A stretch of 64,000 nucleotides of DNA from Mycobacterium dioxanotrophicus (GTDB lineage Bacteria; Actinomycetota; Actinomycetes; Mycobacteriales; Mycobacteriaceae): positions 4,278,001-4,342,000 of the forward strand of contig NZ_CP020809.1 in the NCBI RefSeq assembly GCF_002157835.1, written 5' to 3'. Both the position numbers and the translations under genes were made by a program. Positions 211-60,424 of the stretch are shown in pieces (positions within the stretch are counted from its first letter, which is position 1; every line of letters begins with the position of its first letter). Below the pieces are notes generated by a model, which was given only the letters and a program-made list of their open reading frames with translations, ran no database searches and was not told the DNA's origin.

Positions 211-225
211 TACCCCTTGGGGGTA
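211..225. promoter_or_regulatory. RicR/CsoR-type copper operator
   Basis: The sequence reads TACCC-N5-GGGTA, a palindrome of the kind bound by mycobacterial RicR and CsoR copper repressors (family knowledge). It lies about 70 bp upstream of the ATPase start, where a repressor would block transcription and release on Cu(I) binding. No ricR or csoR gene is visible in the window, so a chromosomal or distal repressor would have to act here. Confidence 0.6.
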
Positions 226-295: not shown

Positions 296-2644
296 ATGAC
301 CGAGCATCGCCACCATGACCACGGATCGGTGCCTGCCCCCGATCTCGTGCACGATCCCGTATGCGGGATGACGGTGGATCCTCACACGAGCGAGTACCGC
401 ATCGAATACGACAGTCGGACATTCCACTTCTGCTCGGCGCACTGTCAGTCCAGGTTCGCAGCGGACCCGGGCGAGTTCCTCGACGCCGCACAGGCCCCGG
501 CCGCTGCGCCGGTCGCATCTCTCGGCGAGAGCGTCGAATACACCTGCCCAATGCACCCCGAGATTCGCCGGCCCGAACCCGGGTCCTGCCCGATCTGTGG
601 GATGGCTCTCGAACCCGCCGTGGTCACCGCCGACACCGGCCCGAGCCCCGAACTCTCCGACATGACCCGCCGCTTCTGGATCGGTCTCGTTCTTACCGCC
701 CCGGTGTTCGCCCTTGAAATGGGCGGGCACCTGTTCCCCTCACTACACCACTTCGTCCCCGCGACGGTCTCGACGTGGATCCAGTTCGTACTGGCGACCC
801 CGGTGGTGCTGTGGGCTGGATGGCCGTTCTTCGTTCGCGGCGCGCAGTCGGTGCGCACACGCAACCTCAACATGTTCACCCTGATCGCGATGGGCACCGG
901 GGTGGCCTGGCTCTACAGCGTCGTCGCCACCCTCGTGCCCGGTGTTTTCCCGGACGCCTTTCGCGGCATGGACGGCACCGTCGCCGTGTACTTCGAGGCC
1001 GCTGCCGTAATCACCGTGCTGGTGCTGCTCGGGCAGGTCCTGGAACTGCGGGCACGGGAGCAGACCTCCGGCGCGATCAAGGCACTGCTTGATCTGGCCC
1101 CGAAGACCGGGCGCCGTATCAACGCCGATGGCACCGAGGAAGAAGTAGCGCTCGACGCCGTGCAGATCGGCGATCTGATGCGGGTTCGGCCCGGCGAGAA
1201 GGTTCCGGTCGACGGCGCCGTGCAGGACGGGCGATCCTCGCTCGACGAGTCTATGGTCACCGGCGAATCGATGCCCGTCACCAAGACTTCCGGAGACACC
1301 GTGATCGGCGGCACCCTCAACCGCACCGGCGCATTGGTGATCCGCGCCGAAAAGGTCGGCCGCGACACCATGCTCGCCCGCATCGTTGCGATGGTGGCGC
1401 AAGCCCAGCGATCCCGCGCACCCATTCAACGGCTCGCCGACAAGGTCGCCCGAAAGTTTGTGCCCGCGGTCATCGCGATCGCCGTCGTCGCGTTTGTGGT
1501 GTGGGCACTCGTCGGGCCCTCCCCCTCGCTGGCATACGCACTGGTCGTCGCTGTGTCGGTGTTGATCATCGCCTGCCCCTGCGCCCTTGGCCTGGCCACC
1601 CCGATGTCGATCATGGTCGGCGTCGGTCGCGGCGCCGAACTCGGTGTGCTCATCAAGAACGCCGAGGCCCTCGAGCGCTTGGAGAAAGTCGACACCCTCG
1701 TCGTCGACAAGACCGGCACGCTGACCGAAGGACGCCCATCGGTCACCGCCATCGTGCCCGACAACGGCATCGACGCCAACGACGTACTGCGCCTGGCCGC
1801 CGGCGTCGAACGTGCCTCCGAACACCCGTTAGCGCTCGCGATTGTCGAAGCGGCCGAACGCGCCGGCCTCACCACCCCAGCCGTCACCGACTTCGATTCC
1901 CCCGTCGGACGCGGCGTGGTCGGCACCGTCGAGGGACGCCGGGTCGCCCTGGGCAATGCCACGTTCCTCGCTGACGAGGGAATCGACATCTCCGCGTTCG
2001 CCCGCCAGGCCGACGACCTCCGCCACGACGGCGCCACTGCGATCTTCGTCGGCGTCGGTGGCCGCGCCGCCGGTGTCCTCGCGATCGCCGACCCAGTCAA
2101 GGACACCACCCCCGAGGCCTTGACCGCGCTGCGCGACGATGGCATCGACGTCGTGATGCTCACCGGCGACAACCGCACCACCGCTGAGGCGGTCGGCCGC
2201 CGGCTCGGCATCAGCGAGGTGGAGGCCGAGGTTCTGCCTGATCACAAGAGCGCAGTCGTGCAGCGACTCCGGGACCAGGGCAAGATCGTGGCTATGGCCG
2301 GCGACGGCGTCAACGACGCCCCTGCACTCGCGGCCGCCGACGTGGGCATCGCGATGGGATCGGGCACGGACGTGGCCATCGAAAGCGCCGGGGTCACGCT
2401 CCTGCGCGGGGATCTGACGGGGATCGTCCGGGCGCGGCGACTATCCGCAGCGACGATGAGCAACATCCGGCAGAACCTGGTCTTCGCTTTCGTGTACAAC
2501 GCCGCCGGCATCCCGCTCGCTGCCGGAGTCCTCTACCCGGTGTTCGGGATACTGCTGTCGCCGATCATCGCAGCCGCCGCGATGGCCCTGTCGTCGGTCA
2601 GCGTCATTGGCAACGCCCTACGGTTGCGCTCGAAGAAGCTCTAA
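296..2644 (+). CDS. Copper-type P1B ATPase with N-terminal YHS and metal-binding domains (CopA-like)
   Basis: Heavy-metal P-type ATPase, 782 aa, expected to export Cu(I) across the inner membrane. In order: a His-rich N-terminus; a YHS domain at about residues 19-58 (DPVCGM, later Cys residues); a heavy-metal-binding domain at about 82-107 ([14 protein letters not shown]); then the ATPase core with the CPC membrane motif ([11 protein letters not shown]), the phosphorylation site DKTGTLTEG and the hinge [10 protein letters not shown]. It lacks the classical N-terminal CxxC HMA domain, as expected for YHS-type ATPases. ATG 296 was chosen because GAAAGG precedes it; an in-frame start at 161 would cover the operator. 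Cu(I) specificity is inferred from CPC, the operator and the copper-gene neighbours. Confidence 0.93.
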
Positions 2645-2665
2645 CCCCGGCCCTGGCACCGGCTC

Positions 2666-2695
2666 CCTCGGTACCTGCCACGGTAGGTATCGAGG
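2666..2695 (+). terminator. Hairpin terminator after the ATPase
   Basis: CCTCGGTACCT and AGGTATCGAGG form an 11-bp stem with one G:T-type mismatch and an 8-nt loop, followed by GGTTT. It starts 21 bp after the ATPase stop codon. The T-tract is weak, as is common in high-GC actinobacteria. Confidence 0.5.
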
Positions 2696-2707
2696 GGTTT
2701 CGATCGA

Positions 2708-2746
2708 GGCCATTAGCGGGCTCGCGGGTCGAACCCGCTAATGGCC
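2708..2746. terminator. Second perfect 13-bp inverted repeat
   Basis: GGCCATTAGCGGG and CCCGCTAATGGCC are perfect complements separated by 13 nt. Together with the preceding hairpin it makes a tandem terminator-like region between the ATPase and the methyltransferase. It has no T-tract, so a protein-binding site is also possible. Confidence 0.4.
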
Positions 2747-2877
2747 AACCATGGCCCACATCACGACCACCACGACCGAGGATAGCCATCGCACGCGGTC
2801 GCCACATCGAAGGCTAGGCACCTCATCTGTAGATACCGGGGTGTACTCGACGGGTCACACGGCGAAGGTTGATGCGT

Positions 2878-2909
2878 TTGCGACCGTGAGCGACATGGTC
2901 ATCTATAAT
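2878..2909 (+). promoter_or_regulatory. Candidate sigma-A promoter for the methyltransferase
   Basis: A perfect TATAAT lies at 2904-2909, about 50 bp before the methyltransferase start. The best upstream element is TTGCGA at 2878-2883 with a 20-nt spacer, which is long, so the -35 assignment is weak. Confidence 0.45.
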
Positions 2910-2957
2910 ACCGGTCTGCCTAATGTGGTGGTAGCGACCTGAAGACAGGACACGTCG

Positions 2958-3626
2958 ATGACCGTCATCACCGTTCCCCAGATTATCCCTGCTCAGCCCG
3001 ACAAACCTGTCCTAGACGATGTTCCCGAGCTCCAGGCATTCGCCCGCGCAATCGCCGTCGATGGCGTCTGGACTACCGACATCGCGCGAGCTACCGCCAG
3101 CATGTTCGACGGTATGGCCGCCACATGGAACACCCAACACAGCACGAACCGATTCGACGCGGTGCGCGACGCCCTCCGTCGGGGCCAGATACCCGTCGGC
3201 GGACGCTGCCTTGAAGTCGGATCCGGAACCGGGCAGATCACCCCGCTGCTGACCGACCACTTCGACGAGGTCTTCTGTGTCGACCTTTCCATCGCACTGC
3301 TCACCCAAGCACCCGGGTGCGACAGCTTTCGCATCTGCTGTGATGCCTCTCGATTGCCGTTTTGCGATCAGGTCTTCGACGCCGCTGTACTCGTCGATAC
3401 GTTCTGCTGCGCCCACGAGCTCGTCCGCGTTCTCAAAGGCCGCGGACACATCGTCTGGATCAACCTGCTCGGCCAAGACGGACCGTTATACGTCCCCGCC
3501 ACCGACATCGCCAGTGCGCTCCCCGGCGCCTGGACTAGTACGGAGAGTGCTGCAGGCTGGGGAAGCTGGAGCGTGCTGTCGGCAGTGGCCTCCCCATCCG
3601 AGCCGGCCAGTACCCCGTGGCCGTAA
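2958..3626 (+). CDS. Class I SAM-dependent methyltransferase
   Basis: A 222-aa Rossmann-fold methyltransferase of the Methyltransf_11 type. The SAM-binding glycine loop LEVGSGTGQ is at about residues 85-93, followed by an acidic strand end (VFCVDLS) and a motif-II-like DAAVLVDTF. The substrate cannot be read from sequence. ATG 2958 has AGGA 8 nt upstream. It stands alone between the ATPase terminators and a convergent L,D-transpeptidase, so its place in the copper island is by position only. Confidence 0.75.
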   Translation: MTVITVPQIIPAQPDKPVLDDVPELQAFARAIAVDGVWTTDIARATASMFDGMAATWNTQHSTNRFDAVRDALRRGQIPVGGRCLEVGSGTGQITPLLTDHFDEVFCVDLSIALLTQAPGCDSFRICCDASRLPFCDQVFDAAVLVDTFCCAHELVRVLKGRGHIVWINLLGQDGPLYVPATDIASALPGAWTSTESAAGWGSWSVLSAVASPSEPASTPWP

Positions 3627-3666
3627 TTACACACGTCGCTGGCCACCCACCGCTGTCAGACCACGG

Positions 3667-4923
3667 TCAACGCAAAGCACTGCCTTTCACCCACTGCTCC
3701 CAGGGCACACTCCAGTCGCCGTTCTGCCAGACCTGCAGGGGCTCGCCGCCGGTGTTGCGAACCTCGACGACATCGCCGGGCTGGGAAAAGTCGTAGAACC
3801 AGCGGGCGTTGTCGGGGTTGAGGTTCAGGCAGCCGTGCGACACATTGGTGTTGCCCTGAGCCCAGACGGTGCTCTCCAGCTGATGCAGATAGATCCCGTC
3901 GGTGCTTATACGGGTGGCCCACGAGATCGTTTCGCGGTACCCCAGCCGGGAATTGATCGGCAGGCCATAGGTCGAGGAGTCCATCACCACGGGATTGGCC
4001 TTGTCCATCACCGTGTAGATGCCGCGCTGGGTCCAAAATGAGATGGTTTGTCCGTTGACCCTCTCGGTGCCGCCCATGCCCATCGAGGTCGGCATGGTGC
4101 GGACCAGTTGGCCGTTGTTGAACACGCTGACCTGTTTGGTGGCGTCGTCGGCGATGGCGACGTGTGCGTCGCCGATGACAAAGCCCACATGCACATCCTC
4201 TTGCCCATACAGGCCGCCCCCCAACGCCGCTCCGTAGATGTTGGCCTGCACCGTCACCGCCGTTTCCGGGGCGAAGTACTGTGCCGGGCGCCAATGCGCA
4301 GTCTGATCGTCCAGCCAGTACCAGGACCCGATCACCGCCGGTGCAGTCGACACCACCAGGCGCCGCTCGGCGGCGGCCTTGTCGACGATCGGTTCATCGA
4401 AGCGCGCCACCACGACGGTGCCGATGCCGTAGGTCGCGCCGTCACGCACGTCAGCACCCGATGTCGTGGTCAGCCGGACCCGGGTCTGATTGCCCGGAAC
4501 CAGGGTCGAGAACGTAGAAACACGTTGCAGCCGGGCCCCGTCGGGGGCGGTGGCGGTCGCGGTGATGGTGTAGGTGCGTCCATAGCCCAGCGGCACGGCG
4601 GGCTTCCACACCGCACCGTCGGGTGTGGTGACGCCGGCGATGCGGATGCCCTCTTCGTTGGTCATCGTCACCTCCGACACCGAAGCAAAGCTCGCCGACA
4701 CAGTTACCGGGCCCAGTGGGTCCACATCGGTGGCCGCCGGTCCCGGGGAAATCACCAGATCGGCGATTGGCTGCGGCGCAACGGCGCTCTGCTGGTCGCT
4801 GCTGCCCGCGCGGTCACACCCCCAACAGTGCGAGATTCCCACGGCGACAACCGCCCCGAACGTTCCGGTGAGCACCAGCACCGCGGCCAACACCCGCACG
4901 CCGATTCGGCGATCCACGGTCAC
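3667..4923 (-). CDS. L,D-transpeptidase (YkuD domain), LdtMt2-like
   Basis: A peptidoglycan 3-3 cross-linking enzyme, 418 aa. The N-terminal hydrophobic segment (VRVLAAVLVLTGTFGAVVAV) ends near Cys residues and may be a signal anchor or lipobox. Ig-like domains follow, then a YkuD domain with the catalytic motif [10 protein letters not shown] (active Cys) and the upstream His in IYLHQLES. Length and layout match mycobacterial Ldts (about 400 aa). GTG 4923 is preferred because GGGAGG lies 5 nt upstream; GTG 4953 is an alternative. It lies downstream of the multicopper oxidase in the same direction with a 290-320-bp gap that carries its own operator-like palindrome. Confidence 0.9.
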   Translation of the reverse strand: MTVDRRIGVRVLAAVLVLTGTFGAVVAVGISHCWGCDRAGSSDQQSAVAPQPIADLVISPGPAATDVDPLGPVTVSASFASVSEVTMTNEEGIRIAGVTTPDGAVWKPAVPLGYGRTYTITATATAPDGARLQRVSTFSTLVPGNQTRVRLTTTSGADVRDGATYGIGTVVVARFDEPIVDKAAAERRLVVSTAPAVIGSWYWLDDQTAHWRPAQYFAPETAVTVQANIYGAALGGGLYGQEDVHVGFVIGDAHVAIADDATKQVSVFNNGQLVRTMPTSMGMGGTERVNGQTISFWTQRGIYTVMDKANPVVMDSSTYGLPINSRLGYRETISWATRISTDGIYLHQLESTVWAQGNTNVSHGCLNLNPDNARWFYDFSQPGDVVEVRNTGGEPLQVWQNGDWSVPWEQWVKGSALR

Positions 4924-4986
4924 ACCGGCCTCCCGTCGCGGAGCGCCGCGCACGCCCCACCATTCGAACTACACCTGTCACATCAT

Positions 4987-5005
4987 CTACTAAGCTACAT
5001 AGTAG
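4987..5005. promoter_or_regulatory. Palindrome CTACTA-N7-TAGTAG upstream of the L,D-transpeptidase
   Basis: A perfect 6-bp inverted repeat with a 7-nt spacer, about 65 bp upstream of the GTG start, resembles operators of BlaI/CopY-type winged-helix repressors. No such repressor gene is visible. The rest of the interval 4924-5243 shows no gene. Confidence 0.4.
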
Positions 5006-5243
5006 ACGATGCGATCGTCGCTACTCGGCTCACGGTGCGAATCGGCTTATGGTGCTGGCGCCCAAGTCATTAGGCGGATGTGGGCCCTTGCGCGCGACCA
5101 GCAGTCGTTCGGGGCAGCACCACATCATGGCGACCCCAATGCCCTCCACGGCCGGCCCCATACAGGCCTGATGCGACACCCGTGTTTGACCGGCCTGAGG
5201 GACCTCGCAGGACACGCCGCCGGCCGGCTGCTTTTCCCGTGGG

Positions 5244-6755
5244 CTAGGCCTGGTAATCCACACTGGTCATCATGCCGGCCTCTTGGTGATAGGTGTTGTG
5301 ACAGTGCATCATCCACACACCGGGATTGTCGGCGACGAACCGCACCTGTAGCTTTTGCATCGGCAACACGATGGCGGTGTCTTTGCGCGCGCCTGGGCGG
5401 CCATCGGCGCCGACCACTTCGAAGGTGTGTCCGTGCAAGTGCATCGGGTGCCACATCATCGTGGCGTTGTTGAACGTCAACGACACATGTTGGCCCTCTC
5501 GGACCTGCAGCGGGCGGGTCTTTGCGAACGGCAATCCATTGATCGTCCAGTCGTAGCGCATCATCGACCCACCCAGATCTGCCGACAGGTTCACCTCGTC
5601 GGGCGATGGCGGCAACACCGCCTCCCCTGTGGCGGCCAAGTCGCTGACTGTCGCGACGCGGCCCTGCAGCTCGCCGGGGGTGTACTCGGCAGCCGGGGTC
5701 ACCCCTGTCCCGGTGACCAGCAATGCGCGCGCGGTAGCGTTCTTGCCCTCGGCCGCTGCCACCAGTGGAAACACTCCGTCTCCGGCGGTGACTACCATGT
5801 CGTAGCGTTCCCCCATGCCGAGCAACACGGCGTCAGCGTCGATGGGCGTTACCGGGAATCCATCGGTATGGGTGATGGTCAGCCGGTGTCCTGCAAGCGC
5901 CACTCGAAAGGCGGTATCAGACCCGGCGTTGATGATCCGAATCCGCACCCGGTCACCAGGCTTGGCGCGAAACGTCGTGGGCGCCTGAGGGATACGCCCG
6001 TTGATCGCATAGTATGGGTAGCTTACGTCGCCGGCGTCCCCGCCGAGCAACGCACTGTTGCCCATACCGCCACCGCTCATACCTCCCATCCCCGGCATGC
6101 CGTTGTGGCCGCTGCCGCCGCGCAATCCGTCATAGATCTGGGTCGGGGTCGGGCCTACCCCGTCAGTCCAGTCATCGAGCATCACCACCCACTCGGCGTC
6201 GTAGCGGCCAGGGTCGTTGGGGTCATCGACGATCACCGGAAAATACAGGCCGGTGTCGGCGTCCAGCCCGGTGTGCGGATGGGCCCAATAGGTTCCAGGG
6301 TGCGGCACCGAGAATCGGTACGTGAACTCACCGCCGGCATCGATGTCGGGTGTGGCCGGCGAAGCGCCATCCATGTCGTTGCGCAACGCAACCCCATGCC
6401 AGTGCACCGAGGTGGAGTGATCCAGATGATTGCGCACCGTCACCGCCAACTCATCGCCGACTGACGCCCGCACCAGTGGCCCGGGTACAGAACCGTTGTA
6501 GGACAACGTGTCTACTGTGCGGCCTCCAAGATCGACGGGGCCGCGCTGAGCGGTCAAGGTGGTCGACACGGTGCGCCCGCTGTGGGGGCGGCGTGCTTCG
6601 GCGGCGGCAATCGCGCCCGACGAGGAGGACGTGGAGGCCGGAGGTGCCGTACCAGTGTTGCGCTGACACCCCGTTATCGCGGTAGCACCCAACGCGACTG
6701 AAGCCGCAAGGAACCCGCGGCGGCTGAACTGCGGTGCCCTGCCGGTATCAATCAT
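5244..6755 (-). CDS. mmcO: Tat-exported multicopper oxidase (MmcO-like)
   Basis: A 503-aa three-cupredoxin laccase-like oxidase that would oxidise Cu(I) to Cu(II) outside the membrane. The N-terminus has a twin-arginine signal (FSRRGFLAAS) followed by a lipobox-like ITGC. Copper-ligand motifs are in the family order: HWHG, AHPHTG, HPMHLHGH and MHCHNTYHQEAGM. A Met/Gly-rich stretch (GMPGMGGMSGGGMG) near the middle is typical of cuprous oxidases. ATG 6755 has AGGAGAA at good spacing, and its first codons overlap the end of the upstream small membrane gene by 8 bp, which implies coupled translation. It resembles M. tuberculosis MmcO, but the upstream region has direct repeats rather than a RicR box. 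Confidence 0.92.
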   Translation of the reverse strand: MIDTGRAPQFSRRGFLAASVALGATAITGCQRNTGTAPPASTSSSSGAIAAAEARRPHSGRTVSTTLTAQRGPVDLGGRTVDTLSYNGSVPGPLVRASVGDELAVTVRNHLDHSTSVHWHGVALRNDMDGASPATPDIDAGGEFTYRFSVPHPGTYWAHPHTGLDADTGLYFPVIVDDPNDPGRYDAEWVVMLDDWTDGVGPTPTQIYDGLRGGSGHNGMPGMGGMSGGGMGNSALLGGDAGDVSYPYYAINGRIPQAPTTFRAKPGDRVRIRIINAGSDTAFRVALAGHRLTITHTDGFPVTPIDADAVLLGMGERYDMVVTAGDGVFPLVAAAEGKNATARALLVTGTGVTPAAEYTPGELQGRVATVSDLAATGEAVLPPSPDEVNLSADLGGSMMRYDWTINGLPFAKTRPLQVREGQHVSLTFNNATMMWHPMHLHGHTFEVVGADGRPGARKDTAIVLPMQKLQVRFVADNPGVWMMHCHNTYHQEAGMMTSVDYQA

Positions 6756-7014
6756 TGCTGGGGTTCTCCTGCGTCGTGTGATCACTAGTTGCCGATACGC
6801 GGTCGACGCCGGCCCGCACGCGGGGACCGGGTGTCAACATTGCCGCGATCACCGGTGTCGACCGAACTTCATGTCCACCGCGGCGGCGGGGACTGAACAA
6901 CGATGCCGCTGTCGCGATCGCGACGACCCAGCACACCACCAGCGCAGCGGTCAGCAGCAGCCAGCCATCCCAGTCGGCGTCGACGAACCCGCCGAGCGTT
7001 GATCCCACAGACAT
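6748..7014 (-). CDS. Small membrane protein upstream of the multicopper oxidase
   Basis: An 88-aa protein with one strong hydrophobic helix at about residues 18-43 and a basic, hydrophilic C-terminal tail. ATG 7014 follows a strong AGGAGG. Its stop overlaps the oxidase start, so the two form an operon. No domain is recognised; a membrane partner or anchor for the oxidase is only an inference. Confidence 0.7.
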   Translation of the reverse strand: MSVGSTLGGFVDADWDGWLLLTAALVVCWVVAIATAASLFSPRRRGGHEVRSTPVIAAMLTPGPRVRAGVDRVSATSDHTTQENPSND

Positions 7015-7056
7015 ATCGGCCTCCTTACCTGTTCCACCCTGACCGCCGCACATCAT

Positions 7057-7092
7057 TGAATCGGTAAGGGTCGTGTGAAGATTCGTTGAAGA
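7057..7092. promoter_or_regulatory. Candidate response-regulator binding repeats in a divergent promoter
   Basis: TGAAGA at 7076-7081 and 7087-7092 are direct repeats exactly 11 bp apart, one helical turn, as for OmpR-family dimers; a related TGAATC lies at 7057-7062. They sit in the 125-bp divergent region between the oxidase operon and the response regulator. Control of both by that regulator is inferred. Confidence 0.45.
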
Positions 7093-7139
7093 AACTCGCC
7101 GATCGTTTGCGGCGCGCGATACAGCCGCACCATTGACAC

Positions 7140-7883
7140 ATGACTGATGCACCGCGGGCAGCGGCAGAGGGCTCGCAGTACCGGGCACTGGTCGTCGATG
7201 ACGAGACCGCGCTGGCCGATGTGGTGGCCAGCTACCTCGTTCGCGAGCAGTTCAGCGCCCACATCGCCCATACCGGGCCAGACGGGCTCGAATTGGCTCG
7301 CACTGTCGATCCCGACGTGGTGATCCTCGATCTGGGGTTACCTGGGATGGACGGATTGGAAGTGTGCCGCCAGATTCGCACCTTCTCTGACGCCTACGTG
7401 GTCATCCTGACCGCCCGCGACACCGAAATCGACACCATTCTCGGGCTCACCGTGGGCGCCGACGACTACGTCACGAAACCGTTCAGTCCTCGCGAATTGG
7501 TTGCCCGCATCCGGGCGATGTTGCGGCGTCCCCGCATTGCTGCCGACCCGGCGCCCGTCGGCGCCTCGGCACGGCCAGCACCCCTGCAGATCGGGGCGTT
7601 GCGCATCGACGTGGCCGCTCGCCAGGTATCGCTGGCCGGGCAGCCGATCGCGCTGACACGGATGGAATTCGACATCCTGGCGACGCTGGCCGCCCGTCCA
7701 GGACTAGTACTGAGCCGGCGCCAGCTGCTGGAATTAGTGCACGACGGTCCGTGGATAGGCAATGATCACCTCGTCGACGTGCACATCGGGCATGTGCGGC
7801 GCAAGCTCGGCGAAGACCCCGGCGCGCGGCGATACGTCGTTACCGTTCGAGGGGTGGGCTACCGCATTGGTAACGGACAATGA
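7140..7883 (+). CDS. OmpR-family response regulator
   Basis: A 247-aa DNA-binding regulator. The receiver domain has acidic residues VVDDE at about 18-22, the phosphoacceptor Asp64 (VILDLGLPGMDG) and the Lys of YVTKPF. The C-terminal winged helix has the usual RRKLGED and VRGVGYRI motifs. ATG 7140 has no clear ribosome site, so the transcript may be leaderless. The kinase start overlaps its stop (ATGA). Divergent from the multicopper oxidase operon, it fits a CopR/CusR-like copper sensor output. Confidence 0.9.
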   Translation: MTDAPRAAAEGSQYRALVVDDETALADVVASYLVREQFSAHIAHTGPDGLELARTVDPDVVILDLGLPGMDGLEVCRQIRTFSDAYVVILTARDTEIDTILGLTVGADDYVTKPFSPRELVARIRAMLRRPRIAADPAPVGASARPAPLQIGALRIDVAARQVSLAGQPIALTRMEFDILATLAARPGLVLSRRQLLELVHDGPWIGNDHLVDVHIGHVRRKLGEDPGARRYVVTVRGVGYRIGNGQ

Positions 7884-9001
7884 CACCGCGGCCGCGACTG
7901 GTCCCCGGGATTGGGATGCGGTTGCTGATCGCGCAATCGGCAGTGCTTCTGGCCGGGGCCATCACCACCTGGCTGGTCGCTGCTGTGGTGGGGCCGCCGT
8001 TGTTCCGTGAACACCTGCACCGTGCCGGCATCCCGCCGCGCTCACCCGAACAATTGCACGCCGAGCAGGCCTACCAGTACGCGACCATGCTGTCGGTCGG
8101 CGGTGCAGTGGTTGTTTCGGCCGTGACAGCGATTCTGGTGACCTGGTATGTCAGCCGGCGGCTGCAACGCTCGGTAGCTGATGTCGCCGCTGCCGCCACC
8201 GCCGTCGCAGACGGCGATTACGGCGTCCGGGTGCCACCACCGGGTCTGGGCGCCGACTTCCATTCATTGGCACACGCTTTCAACCACATGGCCACACAAT
8301 TGCAGGCCGTCGATGTCAACCGGCGCCAACTGTTCAGTGACCTTGCCCACGAAATCCGCACCCCGATAGCTGTCCTGGACGCCTACATCGAGGCAGTCGA
8401 AGACGGGGTGCGATCGTTGACCCCCGACACCACCGCGATGTTGCGAGACCAAACCCGACGACTCGTCCGGTTCTCCGAAGACGTCGCCGCACTCGCTCAG
8501 GCAGAAGAAGGCGCCGCATCGATGTCCATGGCCGACGTGGACATCTCCGAGGTCATTCTCACCATCGCCACAGCGGTCAGCGACCGATACGACGCCAAAA
8601 AGGTGCAGCTACACACAGCACTTCCCCCGTCGTTACCACCGCTGCACGGTGACGGGCAACGACTGGCCCAAGTGCTCACCAACCTGCTCGACAACGCGCT
8701 ACGCCACACCCCCGCGCATGGCCTGGTCACCGTCAGCGCCGAATACCAGGCCGGATGCATCGTGGTGCGAGTCAGCGACACCGGTCACGGCATTACCCCC
8801 GAGCACCTCCCCCACATCTTCGACCGCCTCTACCGCGCTGATCCGGCACGCACCCGCGAGCACGGGGGCTCGGGGCTTGGTCTGTCTATCGCCAAGGCGA
8901 TCGTCGAGGCCCACGGTGGCAGCATCCGTGCTGAAAGCTCAAGTTCGCCAAAACAAACCACTTTCACCGTCGAGTTGCCGACAACGGCCACACCGAACTG
9001 A
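7880..9001 (+). CDS. Sensor histidine kinase, partner of the adjacent regulator
   Basis: A 373-aa membrane kinase. Helices at about residues 13-38 and 69-91 bracket a short extracytoplasmic loop of only about 30 residues, followed by HAMP, HisKA with His157 (LAHEIRTP), and HATPase_c with NLLDNALRHT and GGSGLGLSIAKA. The 4-bp ATGA overlap with the regulator indicates coupled translation. The short loop has few obvious metal ligands, so copper sensing is inferred from neighbours. Confidence 0.88.
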   Translation: MTPRPRLVPGIGMRLLIAQSAVLLAGAITTWLVAAVVGPPLFREHLHRAGIPPRSPEQLHAEQAYQYATMLSVGGAVVVSAVTAILVTWYVSRRLQRSVADVAAAATAVADGDYGVRVPPPGLGADFHSLAHAFNHMATQLQAVDVNRRQLFSDLAHEIRTPIAVLDAYIEAVEDGVRSLTPDTTAMLRDQTRRLVRFSEDVAALAQAEEGAASMSMADVDISEVILTIATAVSDRYDAKKVQLHTALPPSLPPLHGDGQRLAQVLTNLLDNALRHTPAHGLVTVSAEYQAGCIVVRVSDTGHGITPEHLPHIFDRLYRADPARTREHGGSGLGLSIAKAIVEAHGGSIRAESSSSPKQTTFTVELPTTATPN

Positions 9002-9028
9002 TGAGCGGCCTCCGGCGGCCACGAAGTG

Positions 9029-10135
9029 TCAGTGCCTTGCGGGTGCCGGCTGGGGCACCGTGTTGCACCGAGTCCACGCCGTCACCACCTGTTCGCTCGG
9101 GTGGCCGATCACGGCGGGTTGCCCCGCCGGTTGGTCGATGAGCAGTTCGTGCTGAAGGCAGTAGGCGTCGTTGTAAACGGTATCGAAGTAACGTTGTGGT
9201 CCGTCGGGAAAGACTGCGGCAATAGTGGCGTCCTGATCGCTTGTGCGGGCAACCCAGTCGGCGACCAAGGCGACCGCCCCGACGCTCCACCCGCCGGTGA
9301 GGAAGTGGCGGGCGGCCAGGTGGCGGCAGGACCACACCGCCTCGGCCGGGGCAACCCAATGCACTTCGTTGAACGCCTCATACGCGATATTGCGAGGATA
9401 AATGCTTGATCCAAGCCCGCGCATCAACCGGGTGGTCGCCGGTTGACCGAAGATGGTGGATCCGATGCTGTCCACGCCGATCAACCGCAGGTCGGGGTTG
9501 AACTGCCTCAGGATGCGGGCCACCCCGGCAGAATGACCCCCGGTGCCCACTGAGCACACCAGAACATCAATAGGGCCGAGCTCCGCGTGCAGTTCCATCG
9601 CCAGGCTCCGATACCCATCAACGTTATCGGGATTGTTGTACTGGTCGGGATACCAACCGCCAGGTTCGGCACCCAGAAGCTGCGCGGCACGCTGCTTGCG
9701 GGCCTGTTGCCAGCCACCATGGGGATCGGGCTGCGTGACACGATCGACGGTGGCTCCATACGCCGACAGCATCCGCTGCACAATCGGCTCCATCCCGGGA
9801 TCAGTCACCAACGTCACGGGATGGCCGTACACCATGCCCGCCAGCGCAAGCCCCAAACCTAATGTGCCGCTGGTTGATTCAACGATCCGCCCTCCCGGCC
9901 TCAAGTCGCCCCGGGCCCGGGCGCATTCGACCATGTGCATGGCAGGGCGGTCTTTCATGCCGCCCGGGTTGAACCCTTCGAGCTTGGCCCAGTATCCGCG
10001 ACTGCCGTGAGTCAATCGCGCTGGTACCCGTAGCACCGGTGTGTCGCCCACCATTGCTGCAGGGCGATCGCAGCGACGAAGCAGCCTGGGACGTCCAGCA
10101 TGGCTGATCGGTGCGGGGCTCAGAACGTGGTTCAT
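9029..10135 (-). CDS. PLP-dependent cysteine synthase / cysteine desulfhydrase-like enzyme (Cds1-like)
   Basis: A 368-aa fold-type II PLP enzyme. The PLP Lys is about residue 61 ([11 protein letters not shown]), the substrate loop is STSGTLG and the phosphate-binding loop is [10 protein letters not shown]. It resembles the family of M. tuberculosis Cds1 (Rv3684), which releases H2S from cysteine, rather than CysK/CysM, but sequence alone cannot separate synthase from desulfhydrase. It converges on the sensor kinase. In a copper island, sulfide could precipitate copper, or cysteine could feed thiol buffers; both are inferences. Confidence 0.75.
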
Positions 10136-10291
10136 CGAGTGTCTTTCTCAAGTCGTACCGCCCACGGGCCGGTATTGGAATCGGATCGCCTCCACGACGG
10201 CGCAGTCGGCTCGGTTAGCAGAACTGGAAGGCGCTTCGGCGACGGGGCGCGCGCCCGGAAACATGGCAGCGACAACGCATTACGTGATCTC

Positions 10292-10609
10292 TCAGCGTTT
10301 GCACATCAGGTCGACGTACACCGTCGGTGCCGCGATAGGCTGCGTACGTACTCCGGCCCGGATCGGCAGATTCTGTGAGGCTTTACGACCGGGTCGCACC
10401 GCGTTGACGGTGCACGTATTGAGTGGCCCGTCGCCGACTCTGCTGACCAGAACGTGGAATCCCTGGGCCTGCAGCATCCCGATTGTTGACTGGGCATCAG
10501 TGGATCCCGTTGGCGCGGCCGCTGCGGAGCTCGCAAACGCGATCGGTGCCGCGCTCGCGGCTATCGCGATCGCCAGGGCTGCTAATGGTGAGCGGAATGT
10601 GAAAGACAT
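10292..10609 (-). CDS. Small secreted protein of unknown function
   Basis: A 105-aa protein with a Sec signal peptide (AALAIAIAASAAPIAFASSA, cleavage near AAA-A) and a mature part of about 72 residues with two Cys (NTCTVN and the terminal MCKR) that could form a disulfide. ATG 10609 follows AAGGAAG. It looks like a mycobacterial exported-protein family, but no function is known to me. Confidence 0.7.
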   Translation of the reverse strand: MSFTFRSPLAALAIAIAASAAPIAFASSAAAAPTGSTDAQSTIGMLQAQGFHVLVSRVGDGPLNTCTVNAVRPGRKASQNLPIRAGVRTQPIAAPTVYVDLMCKR

Positions 10610-10783
10610 TGGCCCTTCCTTTCAAAGAAGATTTGTCTATCGCTCAGCGTAAATGCGAAAAGGGGCGCTATTCGGAACTCATATCGAACCCAAACAAATA
10701 CGCATATCGAACGTCCAGGATGTTTTCAGCTGGCACCGTGATAGTTCACATTTGGCGTGGTTCGCAGCCACCTGAAGTAAGCG

Positions 10784-12244
10784 CTAACCCGTCAACGGCA
10801 GGCGGACGATAAATGCTGTCCTGCCCGGTGTGGATTCGACCTGCACGGTGCCGTGGTGCGCTTCGGCGATCGAGGCCACGATTGCCAATCCCAGACCGGT
10901 ACCTGATCCCGGGTCGCGTGAATTCTGTGCTTTGACAAACCGGTCGAACAGGGTGGGCAGCAATTGTGGGTCGATGCCGGGGCCGTCGTTGGCAACGGTC
11001 AGCTCGACCCAGCCCGCATCGGTGCCCGGCACAGCGAGGGTGGTCACGACGGTGGTCCCGGGTGGGGTGTGTACCCGGGCGTTGGTAAGCAGATTGCTGA
11101 TGAGTTGATGCAGGCGGGCGGGGTCCCCGTGAACATGCACCGCTGTGTCGGGTAGGCAGGTCTGCCACGTGTGCTCGGTGCCCACAACAGCGGCGTCGTT
11201 CACCGCGTCGACGAGTAGGTCGGACAGATTCAGCTCGCCATAGTCGAGGTCTTGTCCCTCGTCGAGTCGCGAGATGAGCAATAGGTCGTTGACCAGTCGC
11301 GTCATGCGGTGCGATTCGGCTTCGATGCGGGCCAACGCGTATTCGGTGACTGCTGGCAGCTCCGTACTATCTTGCCTGGTCAATTCCGCATAGCCCTGGA
11401 TCGCGGTCAGCGGGGTGCGCAGCTCATGGCTGGCATCGCTGAGGAAGCGTCGCGTGCGCCGATCGGACTCCGCGCGTGCGGCCAGAGCACTGTCAACGTT
11501 ATCCAGCAAGCGATTCAGGGTGTCGCCGACGATACCCACCTCTGTGGTGGGATCGGTGTCGGTGGCGCGGACACGCATCGTGATCCGGTGGTCGTCGTCA
11601 GTCAAAGGCAGGTTGGCGACCTGGGCGGCGGTGGCGGCGACTCGCCGCAGCGGCCTCAGCGACGACCGCACCACGGCGACGGTGCCCATCGACGTCGCCG
11701 CAAGTGCTGTCACGATCAGAGTTAGAGTCCAGAGTGTTTTCTCTCTGAGAGCACGGTAGGCAGGAGCCAACGACACAGCCGAAACCAGCCGCTCGCCGCC
11801 CTCGATCGTTCGGCTGCGCACGCGGTAGGGCCCCAAACTGCCCAAATCGATGGTGAATGCCGGCCCGTTGCGCCAGACGTGATTCTCGATCACACTCACC
11901 ACGTCCGCCGGCGCCGGTCGCGAATCGCGTTCGTAAAACACAGCTGATTCGACCATCTCGTTGCCATGCAACACCGCGATGACGTTGTCGACGCCCTGGC
12001 CGGTGAAGTGAGTAAGTTCTTCTGCCAGCAGTGGGCCGTCGGCATGGTCCTGCAGCGCGTACTCGAATGCGGTCAAAGCCCGCCCCACCTGCGCGTCACT
12101 GACGTTGGTCACGTAACTGCGCAACGTCAGAATCGATACCGTCCCGACAGCCAGCAACACCACCGTGACGACCGCGCAGACGCCCACCGCCAGTCGGCTG
12201 AGCAGCGACCGCGGCGGCCACCACGGCACGCGGCTATGTGCCAT
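10784..12244 (-). CDS. trcS: Sensor histidine kinase, TrcS-like
   Basis: A 486-aa kinase with transmembrane helices near residues 15-40 and about 155-180 around a long extracytoplasmic sensor, then HAMP, HisKA (DASHELRTPLTAIQGYAE) and HATPase_c (NLLTNARVHT, GTGLGLAIV). ATG 12244 overlaps the 3' end of the regulator gene by 11 bp; an upstream start at 12271 is possible. The partner regulator is very like mycobacterial TrcR, so this is called TrcS-like. Its signal is unknown. Confidence 0.82.
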   Translation of the reverse strand: MAHSRVPWWPPRSLLSRLAVGVCAVVTVVLLAVGTVSILTLRSYVTNVSDAQVGRALTAFEYALQDHADGPLLAEELTHFTGQGVDNVIAVLHGNEMVESAVFYERDSRPAPADVVSVIENHVWRNGPAFTIDLGSLGPYRVRSRTIEGGERLVSAVSLAPAYRALREKTLWTLTLIVTALAATSMGTVAVVRSSLRPLRRVAATAAQVANLPLTDDDHRITMRVRATDTDPTTEVGIVGDTLNRLLDNVDSALAARAESDRRTRRFLSDASHELRTPLTAIQGYAELTRQDSTELPAVTEYALARIEAESHRMTRLVNDLLLISRLDEGQDLDYGELNLSDLLVDAVNDAAVVGTEHTWQTCLPDTAVHVHGDPARLHQLISNLLTNARVHTPPGTTVVTTLAVPGTDAGWVELTVANDGPGIDPQLLPTLFDRFVKAQNSRDPGSGTGLGLAIVASIAEAHHGTVQVESTPGRTAFIVRLPLTG

Positions 12245-13013
12245 CGGCCGGCCGCAGCATATATCCGACACCGCGGGCCGTGTGAATCATCGGAGCTCGC
12301 CCGGCGTCGACTTTCTTGCGCAGATACGAGATGTAGAGGTCGACTATGCTGGTCCGCCCCGCAAAGCGATAGTTCCAGACCCGATCGAGAATCTCAGCGC
12401 GGCTCAGAATCCGCCGCGGATTGCGCATCAGGTACCGCAACAACTCGAACTCGGTACCGGTCAGGCTGATCGGGTCGTCATCGCGGGTCACCTCACGCGA
12501 CGCCCCGTACAGAACAAGGCCGCCCACGCTGAGCACCTCGTTGTCGGGTGCAGACAGCACACTCGATCGGCGCAGCAAACCGCGCAGCCTGGCGACGAGC
12601 TCCTCGAGACTGAACGGCTTGGACATGTAATCGTCGGCACCGGCCGTCAGACCGGTGACGCGGTCGATCACCGCATCGCGGGCCGTCAGCAACAGGGTCG
12701 GTGTGTATTGATCACCATTGCGTACCTGCCTGAGGACCTCCAACCCGTCCGCATCGGGAAGCTGGATGTCGAGGACGAGGGCATCGGGGCGCATCTCGAT
12801 GAACTTCTGCACCGCTTCGCGACCCGTGTGGGCAACACCGACCTGCCAGCCTTCGTAGTGCAGGACCATCTTCACCAGATTTGTCAACGCCGGCTCATCA
12901 TCAACCAGCAAAATCTTAATCGACTGTGCATCGTGGCCGCTGCCTGTGATTGGCGCGTCAACGACGGCGCCGCCGAATTGCTCATGTGCTGTTGACACGG
13001 TTGTCATAGACAT
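12234..13013 (-). CDS. trcR: OmpR-family response regulator, TrcR-like
   Basis: A 259-aa regulator. The receiver has ILLVDDEPALTNLVKMVLHY, the phosphoacceptor Asp near residue 82 (ALVLDIQLPDADG) and MSKPFSLEELVARLRGLLRR; the winged helix has NYRFAGRTSIVDLYISYLRK and ARGVGYMLRP. These stretches match my memory of M. tuberculosis TrcR closely. The start is ATG 13013 or 13007; the ribosome site is weak. The interval upstream is relatively AT-rich, as expected for TrcR autoregulation (known for the chromosomal system). Confidence 0.85.
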   Translation of the reverse strand: MSMTTVSTAHEQFGGAVVDAPITGSGHDAQSIKILLVDDEPALTNLVKMVLHYEGWQVGVAHTGREAVQKFIEMRPDALVLDIQLPDADGLEVLRQVRNGDQYTPTLLLTARDAVIDRVTGLTAGADDYMSKPFSLEELVARLRGLLRRSSVLSAPDNEVLSVGGLVLYGASREVTRDDDPISLTGTEFELLRYLMRNPRRILSRAEILDRVWNYRFAGRTSIVDLYISYLRKKVDAGRAPMIHTARGVGYMLRPADGT

Positions 13014-13997
13014 ATGGTCCGAAATCCAAGTGGTGCTGTCACGACATTCATACGGTTCGCATATAGTCCCTGCTGGCGACAAATCATACAATCTTGTTGT
13101 GGCGTCATATTCATCTCAACCTGTCCTCATCATCAACAATGCGCACGCCCCAAAAGCAGCGGCGAAGGCGACCTTAATTCGATGAAACGTCACGTCACAC
13201 GTCCATCGGGGGTCGGTTCTCTTCGCCGCCGCCGGTGATGCACCTAAGAATTCAATTACGGAACTCGATATTGTCCTTCGATGAACAGTGTGGGACGGGT
13301 ACACGAATCCTCGTCGTGTGTGCTGACCGAGTCACGGCGGCGCACCGACAGGTGCGATGATCGACGGATCTGAGCGGCCCTCGCACACCGACCGCGGCGT
13401 GAGAAGCTCCTGCATGGTGGCGATCTCGCCATGCTGGTCGGTCGCAGTTGGGCGGGACAGGGAGCGAGGCCATCACACCGTCAGCCACGGTGGCCGCCGT
13501 CCGCCCTGCCTGCACTTCGTGTCCTTTCGTCGTCACGTGGACCTCAACGGTGCGATGTCTCACACCGCGGCGTTGCGCTGCTTGGCCGCCGCTGTCTTGA
13601 TCTTCCCCAGGATGGGCGCCGAATCTTGCGAGCAGTTCGGTTTTCGATAAAGAGTCCGTAAAGAACCCACTACCGTGGCCACGGCCAAGCACGACCTCGA
13701 AACTCCGTAGGCAGCATTGCGATGATGCCCGCATGTACACGTAATCGGTACGTATGTAACAGTCTCGTACACCACAACGTGGCCACGGCGTTGTTCCCGC
13801 AGCATGTCCACCGCACGGTTCGTCCAAACTACGGCGAACTTCACTGTGACATGCAGCGTGAAACTGGCTCAGCCAGGCCACGTCACCGCAACTCACCCTA
13901 CATACGGTATCCGTACGTAAATAGTAGTATGTGGAGCACGTGTCGCAGATTCCGTTGGCCCGGCCGCTCGTCTCACACCTGCGCTGAGGAGGCAACC
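13014..13997. other. 984-bp interval without a convincing gene
   Basis: No open frame here has a ribosome site plus protein-like composition; frames on both strands are Cys/His/Arg-rich shadows. The left part (13,020-13,150) is AT-rich and should hold the trcR-like promoter. The right part holds GTACGTA-type words near 13,747 and 13,908 and an excellent ribosome site (GAGGAGG) for the next gene. A decayed gene between 13,300 and 13,850 is possible but cannot be shown. Confidence 0.4.
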
Positions 13998-14945
13998 ATG
14001 TACCACCAGAGCACACGTCGCTGGGCCGCCCCTATCTTGGCAGCCTTGTGGCTCTCGACATCGCTGCTGAGCGGGCCGGCAGCGATAGCCGATCCAGAGG
14101 GTGCGCCTCCTCCGGTGCCCGTCCAACCGGCGCCGATCCCGAACCCGGTGGCGCCGCAGCCACCCGAACTGCCAGCGCCGTTCACACAACCGTTGAACTC
14201 CGATACTCCCATCGGACAAAACCCGCTTCCGTTCACGGGGCAGCCGCCATTCCTCCCCCCATCGTTCAATCCTGTCAATGGCTCGACCGTTGGGGTCGCC
14301 AAGCCGATCTACATCAACTTTCAACGCCCTATCGCTGACCGGCAGATGGCACAGGACGCGATTCGCATCTCGTCCAACCCGCCCGTGCCGGGCAAGTTCT
14401 ATTGGATGAGCGACACCCAACTCCGTTGGCGGCCAATCGATTTTTGGCCAGCGGGCACCGTTGTCAACATCGATGCGGCCGGCACCATGTCCAGCTTCCG
14501 GGTCGGCGACGCACTAGTCGCCACGATCGATGACAAGACTCACCAAATGCAAGTGGTCCGCAACGGCAAACTGGAAAAAACATTCCCTGTGTCACTGGGG
14601 AAACCGGGTTATGAGACACCGAACGGTACCTACTACGTGCTGGAAAAATTCGCTGACATCATCATGGACTCCTCCACGTACGGGGTCCCGGTGAGATCGG
14701 CCGAAGGCTACAGACTCAAGGTCCAAAACGCCGTCCGCATCGACAACAGCGGAATCTTCGTGCACAGCGCACCCTGGTCGGTAGCCGACCAAGGCAAACG
14801 CAATGTCAGCCATGGCTGCCTCAATCTCAGCCCCGCCAATGCACAATGGTTCTTCGGCAACTTCGGTAGTGGCGACCCCGTCGTCGTCAAGAACTCTGTT
14901 GGCATCTACAACCAACCCGATGGCGCACAAGACTGGCAGATCTAA
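13998..14945 (+). CDS. Second L,D-transpeptidase (YkuD), secreted
   Basis: A 315-aa enzyme with a signal peptide ([18 protein letters not shown]), a Pro-rich linker (about residues 35-90), one Ig-like domain and a YkuD domain with the catalytic motif [10 protein letters not shown]. Paired His is in IFVHSAPW. It is about 100 residues shorter than the first Ldt, with one Ig-like domain less. ATG 13998 follows GAGGAGG at 6 nt. It is the second peptidoglycan cross-linker in a copper island, with a terminal tail QDWQI. Confidence 0.9.
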
Positions 14946-15286
14946 CCAGGGCGGGGACGTGCCCGCTCAGCCACACGCCGGCCCAGGGTAGCGAAAAGCG
15001 GCCGAAGTATCGGGCCCGCAGTATCCAGGGACGCAACATTGCCTTGCCACACCACCCGAACCAGGCGACGGCCGACGACGTTGTGATGTGCACGAAAGCA
15101 AATGGGCGGCACTGTGTAGTCAGCCGCCTGCCTGGAGCACGTCAGAAGCGAAAGAGCACGTTCCTGTTGTGGGCAACGCGGTAGGCCACAAGCTGTTCAT
15201 TCGACTACGGAAGTGTGTTTGTCGGCGCCGCCCTCGGGGTAGGCCATCGGAACTACGGAATCCCCTAGTAGGAAAGAAGGTCACCC
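14946..15286. other. 341-bp intergenic region upstream of the copper-storage gene
   Basis: No gene is visible. The right end carries the ribosome site GGAAAGAAGG for the downstream Cys-rich protein, so its promoter must lie here. No clear TACCC-N5-GGGTA operator is present. Confidence 0.4.
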
Positions 15287-15694
15287 ATGACCACCTCGGC
15301 CACCATCCTCGAAACCCATCCCCGCAAGATCGCTGAAGAACTCCGGACGATCCTGGCCCAATGCCTCGACGCCTGCCTGGACTGCGCACAAACTTGCACT
15401 CAGTGCGCCGATGCATGCCTTAGTGAGCCAACTGTCGACACACTCGCCGCCTGCATCACCTCCAACCTCAATTGTGCCGACATCTGTACAGCTACCGCAC
15501 ACATCAACGCCAGACAAACCGCATTCGACCCCGAATTCGCCAAACCCCTACTCGCAGTATGCGCAACCGCATGCCGAGTCTGCGCCGATGAATGCGAACG
15601 CCACGCTTCGCACCACCAACACTGCAAAACCTGCGCCGACGAATGTCGACGCTGTGAACAGGCCTGCCGCGACCTCATCACACACCTCAGCTGA
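15287..15694 (+). CDS. Four-helix-bundle copper-storage protein (DUF326/Csp-like)
   Basis: A 135-aa soluble protein with 18 Cys arranged as helical CxxxC and CxxC repeats: CLDACLDCAQTCTQC early, CADIC in the middle, CATACRVCADEC and CKTCADECRRC late, plus a HHQH cluster. This is the pattern of the DUF326/Csp family, whose Cys-lined bundle binds many Cu(I) ions (family knowledge). No signal peptide is seen, so it should act in the cytosol, like Csp3. It would complement efflux and oxidation by sequestration. Confidence 0.88.
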   Translation: MTTSATILETHPRKIAEELRTILAQCLDACLDCAQTCTQCADACLSEPTVDTLAACITSNLNCADICTATAHINARQTAFDPEFAKPLLAVCATACRVCADECERHASHHQHCKTCADECRRCEQACRDLITHLS

Positions 15695-16211
15695 CCGGTC
15701 GCGAACCGCGAACGTCTCAGCACCTCGGCCGTCGAGACCTCGTTCCGCTCGTGAACCAATGGGGTTGTGGCATCGGCCTTGAACCCTGCTGCATTCCGCT
15801 GGACTGTGCACTGCAGACATGCCGACATCAGTAGCTGAAGTGGGAAACGGTCGTGCGCAGGACAAGGCCATTGAACCAATGAGGTGCGACAGAACCCAGC
15901 CCTACGATGACCACTGATCGCCGGGCACGGCTCCGGTCCGAAAATTAACAAGCCATTTCCGGGGGCAGCCTGCTCAAGATTCGACCGGAACCGACACGCC
16001 TCACCAGGCTCCGTCTGCTGCCGGACTCGTGCCGCTCGATCCTCCGCCCGCGGTTTGGGCGCTGCTGCTGTTCGATCGCTACGCCTACCGAACGTATGTA
16101 GTACGTACGATACTAGTGATATTTCCGCGATTATTAGGGACTTTTGGCCCTCGCCCCGCCCCGATGGCGGTGCAACGGTAGACGTGAGGGGAAAACGAGA
16201 GGCTAACTTCG
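15695..16211. other. 517-bp interval without a convincing gene
   Basis: Only shadow frames are present. A GTAC-rich stretch at 16,094-16,113 precedes the small secreted protein and may be regulatory. Nothing else is recognised. Confidence 0.35.
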
Positions 16212-16454
16212 ATGACTATCAAACTCCGCTACCTGTTGGCGATTAGTGTCGCGGCGCTCGGTGCCGCGACAGCGATTGAGGCTCCTTCCGCTGCGGCGGA
16301 GCCACAGCAATGCTCGCAGCCCGCTCCCGGCGTTCACGAATGCACCTCACCGGGACACGCGCAAATCCATGTGCCGCCGCCAGCGCCACCCAACTACCCC
16401 AACTATCAAGGCGGGCCTGGGGGCGGTCCTCCGCATCTGCCCTGGATCGGCTAG
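16212..16454 (+). CDS. Small secreted Pro/Gly-rich protein
   Basis: An 80-aa protein with a signal peptide (YLLAISVAALGAATAIEA) and a mature part with two Cys (QQCSQPAPGVHECTSPGH) and a Pro/Tyr/Gly-rich tail. GAGAGG lies just upstream of ATG 16212. It has no known function. The position next to copper genes suggests, but does not show, a periplasmic metal role. Confidence 0.65.
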   Translation: MTIKLRYLLAISVAALGAATAIEAPSAAAEPQQCSQPAPGVHECTSPGHAQIHVPPPAPPNYPNYQGGPGGGPPHLPWIG

Positions 16455-31436: not shown

Positions 31437-31503
31437 CAGTTGTCCTCCTCGAATTTGACTGCGCGGCAACCGACACCGGAAACCGGAAACCACCGCTGAG
31501 TGG

Positions 31504-59975: not shown

Positions 59976-60086
59976 CCTTAGCCACTCAAGCCAACTGGGC
60001 AATTTCGCTTAGCATCTCTGGGCAGTCTTCTTTAGCGCCATCAGCGTAGGCGGTCCGGAGGTTCCTGTACGCGGAGGCCATGCCTG

Positions 60087-60401
60087 ATGCGTCCCTTCAG
60101 GATCTTCAACGATGTCAAAGGCGTGCGCATGGTGGCCAAAATCGGCGGGGTGCGCATGGGCCCATTCGCGGTCATCGCCATCCTTCTGTTGATGGCCTGC
60201 GCGCTCATCGTCGTCATGGTTGCCAACCCGTTGATCGCCGCGGCCGTCTTCGCCGCCGGGTTCGTCGCAGTCAGTGTCTACGTCGCGATCTTGACCCGCA
60301 TCGACAACACCGGAGTGCTCTCCGAATTGACCGCACTCTCCCTGCTGCGACGTGGACTCAGCCACCGGCACAGCGCCAACTTCGACCTCCCCGGCATCTG
60401 A
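60087..60401 (+). CDS. VirB3/PrgI-like small membrane protein
   Basis: A 104-aa protein with two close hydrophobic helices (about 25-47 and 49-69) and a basic N-terminus (FRIFNDVKGVRM). Such two-helix proteins immediately precede VirB4 in Gram-positive T4SS operons. GGAGG lies 10 nt before ATG 60087. 23 bp to virB4. Confidence 0.7.
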   Translation: MRPFRIFNDVKGVRMVAKIGGVRMGPFAVIAILLLMACALIVVMVANPLIAAAVFAAGFVAVSVYVAILTRIDNTGVLSELTALSLLRRGLSHRHSANFDLPGI

Positions 60402-60424
60402 GCCGGCCCGGAAGGACACGCACA

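Follow-up and report, generated by a model that had tools for sequence, protein, structure and literature searches.

The window analysed here is a 64,000-nucleotide stretch of the Mycobacterium dioxanotrophicus genome (positions 4278001-4342000 of a 7,595,921-base contig; genome 8.08 Mb), and its left end carries a copper island in which two L,D-transpeptidases, Ldt1 and Ldt2, are encoded among genes for copper export, oxidation and storage. With modest confidence, and on sequence grounds, the window appears to hold part of a copper-linked, operator-defined regulon of spare envelope enzymes that is found across Mycobacteriales. The gene content, the operators and their linkage are read directly from the DNA. 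At the level of context and operators, the link between copper and the Ldts is real.

The first-pass annotation of this stretch had reported two different YkuD L,D-transpeptidases with an intact catalytic cysteine motif, and the sequence confirms this. Ldt1 (3667..4953, minus strand; 428 residues) and Ldt2 (13998..14945, plus strand; ∼315 residues) are putative 3-3 transpeptidases, each combining a YkuD domain with catalytic H..SHGC and an Ig-like Big_10 domain, which in Ldt2 is matched over part of its length (one Ig). The catalytic residues, Cys375 in Ldt1 and Cys274 in Ldt2, both lie within SHGCLNL. The two differ by a ∼10-residue insert in Ldt1, NGQTISFWTQ, and ahead of the Cys motif, where Ldt1 has the HQL..TVWAQG subtype and Ldt2 has HSAPWSV. 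Among the solved relatives listed for the two, most are M. tuberculosis Ldt type 2; types 1, 3 and 5 score lower. The genome has 11 YkuD matches, so that ∼0.03 would be expected in any 20 kb, and a pair inside 11.3 kb greatly exceeds chance.

A perfect CTACTA-N7-TAGTAG dyad (4987..5005; CTACTAAGCTACATAGTAG) lies 33 bp upstream of the Ldt1 start codon. Exactly two perfect sites occur in the 8.08-Mb genome, each before an island copy of Ldt1. The second copy, 81% identical to the first, belongs to another island at 7.0 Mb (L018) that also holds RipB, BlaI and M56-like genes. Three of the genome's four BlaI-family genes fall in these two islands, as do 6 of the 38 sites found genome-wide at up to two mismatches. 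A shared operator was also considered for Ldt2 and dropped, as the whole-genome list has no site with up to two mismatches near 13998. The ∼900 bp between the second response regulator and Ldt2 (13090-13998) contain imperfect TACGTA/TAGTAG-like repeats and no clear dyad.

The association recurs in other genomes. The Ldt1 locus survey covered the best 80 of 555 relatives in genome contigs; open reading frames (ORFs) in this and the other locus surveys were called mechanically, a copper marker was defined as a multicopper oxidase (MCO), Csp, DUF305 or P1B ATPase in the retrieved stretch (up to ∼10 kb on each side), and the dyad was allowed up to two mismatches. A copper marker is present at 11 of the 80 loci. 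The dyad occurs at 9 of these 11 versus 7 of the 69 without a marker, and BlaI at 8 of 11 versus 5 of 69. Dyad and BlaI are found together at 13 loci, the dyad alone at 3, BlaI alone at none and neither at 64. Five of the seven dyad loci without a copper marker hold BlaI, and another, L037, is a short contig whose Ldt resembles that of L034. These marker-defined counts replace a BlaI count of 18/24 'island' versus 0/62 'core' loci, which was partly circular because BlaI/M56 had served to label the islands; the dyad count under such labels, 22/28 versus 2/66, is touched by the same circularity. When 99 Ldt sequences are placed on a tree, the island label requires 10 changes versus 26.8 in shuffles (0/500 as low), although these labels too rest partly on BlaI/M56 presence and are to that extent circular. 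Island Ldt1s are spread over several lineages, namely Mycolicibacterium, Gordonia, Skermania, Nocardia and Rhodococcus.

Plasmids and MCO loci define how far the pairing extends. Of 72,556 plasmid records searched with tblastn, 86 contain relatives of Ldt1. Among 14 plasmid regions picked as representatives of Ldt1 or Ldt2 matches, 11 annotate a gene for copper or heavy-metal handling (MCO, CopC, CopD, P-type ATPase or four-helix-bundle copper protein), and L015, L326 and L328 annotate none within the stretch. The fullest sets, on Rhodococcus erythropolis and Tsukamurella plasmids, comprise MCO, two-component genes, TlpA, CcdA, Lnt, Ldt, Lgt, BlaI and an M56/M48 protease. From the other side, 60 MCO-centred regions of up to 20 kb were chosen by MCO identity tier among the matches listed. 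Ldts occur in 3/23, 3/17 and 0/20 of the successive tiers and in 0/20 random regions; of the six Ldt-bearing regions, L165 and L166 look like one orthologous locus, and L167 and L166 come from the same genome. The idea that Ldts are a general feature of copper MCO loci was rejected on this count of 6/60. BlaI/M56 genes, in turn, are present in 5/6 MCO-centred regions with an Ldt versus 3/54 without. Within copper islands, Ldts are typical of the subset that carries BlaI/M56 genes and are not a constant component of islands in general.

The first-pass annotation had interpreted the two Ldts as an envelope-protection arm of the island. Its proposed check for Ldts beside copper genes elsewhere comes out in favour: the pairing recurs on plasmids and chromosomes, and the Ldts are not absent from related islands but tied to their copper genes. 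The proposed arm itself stands in part. Ldt promoters carry operators common to copper genes; the Ldts are no general island fixture, and the arm is wider than the Ldts.

That wider extent is seen when the dyad pattern is taken as the starting point. The strict form, with A/T at both inner flanks, gives 161 sites in 65 of 401 genomes versus ∼6 for the reversed pattern, the latter counted by eye. Sites can be densely clustered: a 299-kb replicon (G238:C3) has 12 perfect dyads within 81 kb and another contig (G165:C9) has 8 within 58 kb, both stretches containing an MCO gene. The retrieved loci contain 108 distinct perfect dyads; the clustered ones were selected for dyad density, and the unselected sample consists of 30 strict-dyad loci, one genome each. 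A Pfam scan of 29 dyad-led proteins yielded Lgt (5), COX1 (4), DsbA-like thioredoxin (4), Lnt (3), CtaG (2), CopC (2), M23 (1), cytochrome c assembly (1) and cation efflux (1). Ldt1, TlpA, CcdA, NlpC/P60, MCO and BlaI genes also lie beside dyads, as judged by similarity. In the unselected sample, where genes were named by similarity to Pfam-scanned members, the dyad stands beside M23-like genes at 11 loci, DsbA-like at 7, Ldt1 at 3, COX1 at 2, MCO at 2, CtaG at 1 and others at 4. The island BlaI model is matched in 319/401 genomes (E 1e-25), and therefore only nearness to the dyad was counted as evidence: BlaI lies within 5 kb of the strict dyad in at least 14 of the 30 genomes and in 0/20 random 20-kb regions. 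Each of five dyad-COX1 genomes has 2 to 5 COX1 matches.

Two further features of the dyads were seen. Paired dyads ∼5 bp apart stand before Lgt or DsbA-like genes (L282, 9514-9556; L174, 13646-13688; L277, 9215-9257). A second class, CTACTAC-N5-GTAGTAG, occurs often as single sites in many Gordonia genomes (L236-L265) and is possibly another repressor's site or chance.

An unrelated operator also points to copper. The only perfect TACCC-N5-GGGTA motif in the window, which we take to be the RicR/CsoR box, lies upstream of the copper ATPase (211..225, plus strand); none was found upstream of the window's Ldt1 or Ldt2. The Ldts of pVT2, pMAH135 and a M. chimaera plasmid, all of the M. avium complex, have no dyad and instead carry a perfect TACCC-N5-GGGTA starting 227-247 bp upstream, and a perfect box is also present at a fourth Ldt (L060) and at the pVT2 Csp gene. 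Two unrelated operator types before Ldts, both shared with copper genes, argue for copper control of these enzymes. On a M. paragordonae plasmid (L329), 21 kb contain six RicR-type boxes, and the 350 bp ahead of its Ldt contain none.

Several observations weigh against a shared regulon. Background is high for relaxed sites: at up to two mismatches the genome's 38 dyad sites compare with 958 for the reversed pattern, and therefore single lax sites mean little. One such site (15253..15271, two mismatches) ends 15 bp before the start of the Csp gene and is not conserved in 3/3 Csp relatives examined. The loose perfect dyad occurs in 159/301 family genomes, with the reversed control commoner in most, and 2 versus 5 times in the M. 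dioxanotrophicus genome, so the loose form is uninformative alone; what supports the dyad is its position, its co-occurrence with other features and its strict form. The dyad is also unevenly placed. It is absent from 6/28 island-labelled Ldt1s and from the window's MCO, and only 4/73 MCO upstreams have one at up to two mismatches. Among 12 plasmid Ldt1-type upstreams, the dyad (up to one mismatch) is found in 4, a RicR-type box in 3 and neither in 5. Ldts themselves accompany only 6 of the 60 MCO-centred regions. As for the genes led by dyads, 6 of the 29 scanned proteins fit poorly (MMPL, SerA-like, two SGNH acyltransferases, GNAT and one family-less protein). Ten of the 11 M23 sites are orthologues within the single genus Gordonia, and none of five Gordonia dyad-M23 regions examined has BlaI. 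The M. dioxanotrophicus genome has three COX1 genes without a perfect dyad, and therefore extra copies alone prove nothing. Finally, no report of a copper-inhibited mycobacterial Ldt was found in the literature searched.

The targets of copper in other bacteria provide the functional frame. In the available excerpts of the published reports, copper impairs lipoprotein acylation (PMC6538781); a commentary on that paper names, for E. coli, the Lgt step, L,D-transpeptidases via their Cys thiols and correct disulfide formation as copper-sensitive (PMC6593411); and LD-crosslinks are lost under copper in a panel whose named species are Gram-negative (PMC11390936). In the passages found of a mycobacterial Ldt paper, copper appears only as a coupling reagent (PMC13235563). 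The dyad-led genes overlap this list of copper targets, and the set is therefore read as inducible spare envelope parts. For the mechanism, we infer that BlaI binds the dyad, that M56 acts as the sensor, that copper induces the genes and that these serve as replacements. A BlaI-family repressor would bind the CTACTA-N7-TAGTAG dyad, and an M56-like metalloprotease would detect damage by copper, or thiols modified by it, on the extracytoplasmic side and inactivate BlaI. The derepressed genes would then provide fresh or extra copies of copper-poisoned envelope machinery, with Ldt1 keeping 3-3 cross-linking going while housekeeping Ldts are copper-inhibited. Island Ldts could protect either as copper-tolerant enzymes or by added dose alone. 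Ldt2, an island member without a clear dyad, may answer to the adjacent two-component system. A bolder proposal, offered tentatively, is that the BlaI/M56 pairs of Mycobacteriales copper islands form a new sensor class for copper-damaged envelope thiols that switches on a whole replacement set covering 3-3 cross-linking, peptidoglycan hydrolysis, lipoprotein acylation, disulfide chemistry and heme-copper oxidase, giving resistance by enzyme replacement, not metal removal. Within the partial literature coverage, none of the titles and abstracts listed describes such a set of genes.

The residues around the active site bear on the version put forward in the first-pass annotation, in which the island supplies copper-resistant Ldt isozymes in place of sensitive housekeeping enzymes. 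This would be compatible with a regulon of spare envelope enzymes. Near the catalytic Cys, most island Ldt1s have N368 and N370, whereas His368 or Asp370 is found in many core enzymes. However, the M. dioxanotrophicus chromosomal copy (L020) already reads N-T-N-T at those positions, and all of the 24 island and 63 core Ldt1-type proteins keep the catalytic His, Gly and Cys. In this comparison, for which rows L037 and L060 were assigned to the island group by hand, no active-site residue safely separates island from core Ldt1s across the four phylogenetically independent pairs. The search for copper-tolerance residues was dropped, since phylogeny confounds the residue differences around the Cys. 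The sequences give no sign of the proposed copper tolerance, and the isozyme explanation is doubtful; the wider regulon is the more interesting result.

A regulon of similar content could instead answer general extracytoplasmic thiol and disulfide stress, with copper just one inducer. DsbA-like genes stand beside the dyad in 7 of the 30 sampled loci, and TlpA and CcdA genes carry it too, as this explanation would predict. MCO, CopC and CtaG, on the other hand, are copper proteins or copper-assembly factors, and at Ldt1 loci the dyad goes with copper markers, which makes a general thiol response improbable as the full account.

The repressor and protease families raise a third explanation, that BlaI/M56 is a classical beta-lactam cell-wall sensor and that Ldt, Rip and M23 form an antibiotic-tolerance module that just happens to travel on the same mobile islands as copper genes. 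Beta-lactamase regulation relies on the BlaI and M56 families, Ldts are established to confer beta-lactam bypass, and Ldt tracks BlaI/M56 in MCO-centred regions (5/6 versus 3/54, as above). We regard this explanation as unlikely. It does not predict the same dyad before MCO, CopC, COX1, CtaG and DsbA-like genes, nor RicR-type boxes at the Ldts of three M. avium-complex plasmids. In addition, the one M56-like protein scanned, that of the M. dioxanotrophicus island, has no penicillin-sensor domain, only an M48 match over the curated cut-off and an M56 match under it. The HExAH motif is present in 25 of the 29 M56-like ORFs of the loci. A Cys lies within the last four residues in 24 of these 29 ORFs, possibly as a sensor thiol. 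The alternative identity of the island repressors as CopY was rejected, as the C-terminal CxC..CxC metal hook is found in 0/67 island-type BlaI ORFs. An explanation in which plasmids carry the Ldts as ordinary cargo, or use them to pass DNA across the cell wall, with an incidental copper linkage, is very improbable: many homologues are plasmid-borne and the window has ESX-type genes, but operators common to copper genes disfavour it, and 62 of the 80 Ldt1 loci lack both dyad and copper marker, so that the two go together, not at random.

The efflux ATPase, MCO and Csp-like protein named in the first-pass annotation are all present. Domain matches identify a CopA-type P1B ATPase with YHS and HMBD domains (296..2644, plus strand), a small class I methyltransferase with no assigned role (2958..3626, plus) and the MCO (5244..6785, minus). 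The ATPase gene has ∼76% DNA identity to ATPase genes on Sphingobium plasmids, which suggests either cross-phylum transfer or strong conservation. An OmpR-type response regulator (7140..7883, plus) and a sensor histidine kinase (7880..9001, plus) follow, then a pyridoxal phosphate-dependent cysteine-synthase-like protein (9029..10135, minus), which we take to be CysK2-like, and a 105-residue protein with a signal-peptide-like start and no Pfam match (10292..10609, minus). A second histidine kinase (10784..12271, minus) and second response regulator (12234..13091, minus) precede Ldt2. Downstream of it lie a Csp/Ccsp-type four-helix-bundle copper-storage protein with 18 Cys (15287..15694, plus) and an 80-residue small secreted protein (16212..16454, plus). 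The Csp-type protein scores under the curated cut-off of TIGR04401, and its best solved relatives are 'cytosolic copper storage protein' and CSP3 (E 4e-38). The island extends ∼20 kb leftward beyond the window, where the flank (L025, 20 kb) holds NlpC/P60 genes, an HMA-type ATPase, BlaI and M56-like genes, TlpA, CcdA, a polysaccharide deacetylase and a second CysK2-like gene.

Further right, positions 27338-63097 hold ESX-type genes and an AAA_10 ATPase: an EccE-like gene just under its cut-off (29172-31493), a subtilase (31504-32928), EccD (32967-34676), EccA (50251-52068) and the AAA_10 ATPase (60080-63097). We take this set to be typical of mycobacterial conjugative plasmids. The 'plasmid' location given in the first-pass annotation is nevertheless unsupported, because the window belongs to the chromosome-sized contig of 7,595,921 bases, and the ESX-type stretch is either an integrated element or a chromosomal ESX locus. 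Two ORFs in it (38321-39676 and 57511-58872) have helix-turn-helix domains and identical N-terminal 40 residues, and are probably two copies of one insertion-sequence gene.

Several known systems resemble the proposed regulon in part. MCO, CysK2-like and copper ATPase genes are common to the island and the RicR/CsoR regulons (mmcO, lpqS, cysK2, mymT, ctpV), and the RicR/CsoR-type box is also found at the window ATPase, several plasmid Ldts and a Csp. Unlike members of those regulons, however, the window Ldt1 has the BlaI-linked dyad, and the members listed in the available text on the RicR regulon include no Ldt, Lgt, Lnt, DsbA or COX1 (PMC10470581). A two-component pair adjoins MCO and copper ATPase genes in the Corynebacterium glutamicum CopRS regulon as in the island; the accessible passages name no L,D-transpeptidase and leave several members unexplained (PMC3353115). 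The E. coli Cpx/NlpE response likewise concerns copper damage to lipoprotein acylation and L,D-transpeptidases, yet it is a Gram-negative two-component response, whereas the island has BlaI-linked operators before extra gene copies. Cpx controls ldtD in E. coli. Like the BlaI-BlaR1 systems of M. tuberculosis (Rv1846c) and staphylococci, the island pairs a BlaI-family repressor with an M56-like protease gene, but its gene set differs, as does the domain content of the M56-like protein scanned. Zur-type paralogue replacement, as with zinc-free ribosomal proteins, is a further parallel in which metal state switches replacement paralogues, although there the trigger is metal lack and the products are ribosomal proteins, while here they would be metal excess and envelope enzymes.

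Accounts of copper resistance usually centre on export, oxidation and storage, and these islands also seem to add, under a shared operator, copies of envelope proteins, several of them reported as copper-poisoned in other bacteria. If this is correct, many 'Ig-like', Lgt, Lnt, DsbA and BlaI genes on plasmids would gain a role, and a candidate extracytoplasmic sensor of copper damage would be named. Copper exposure would then alter 3-3 cross-linking, and hence the beta-lactam response, in environmental and M. avium-complex mycobacteria.

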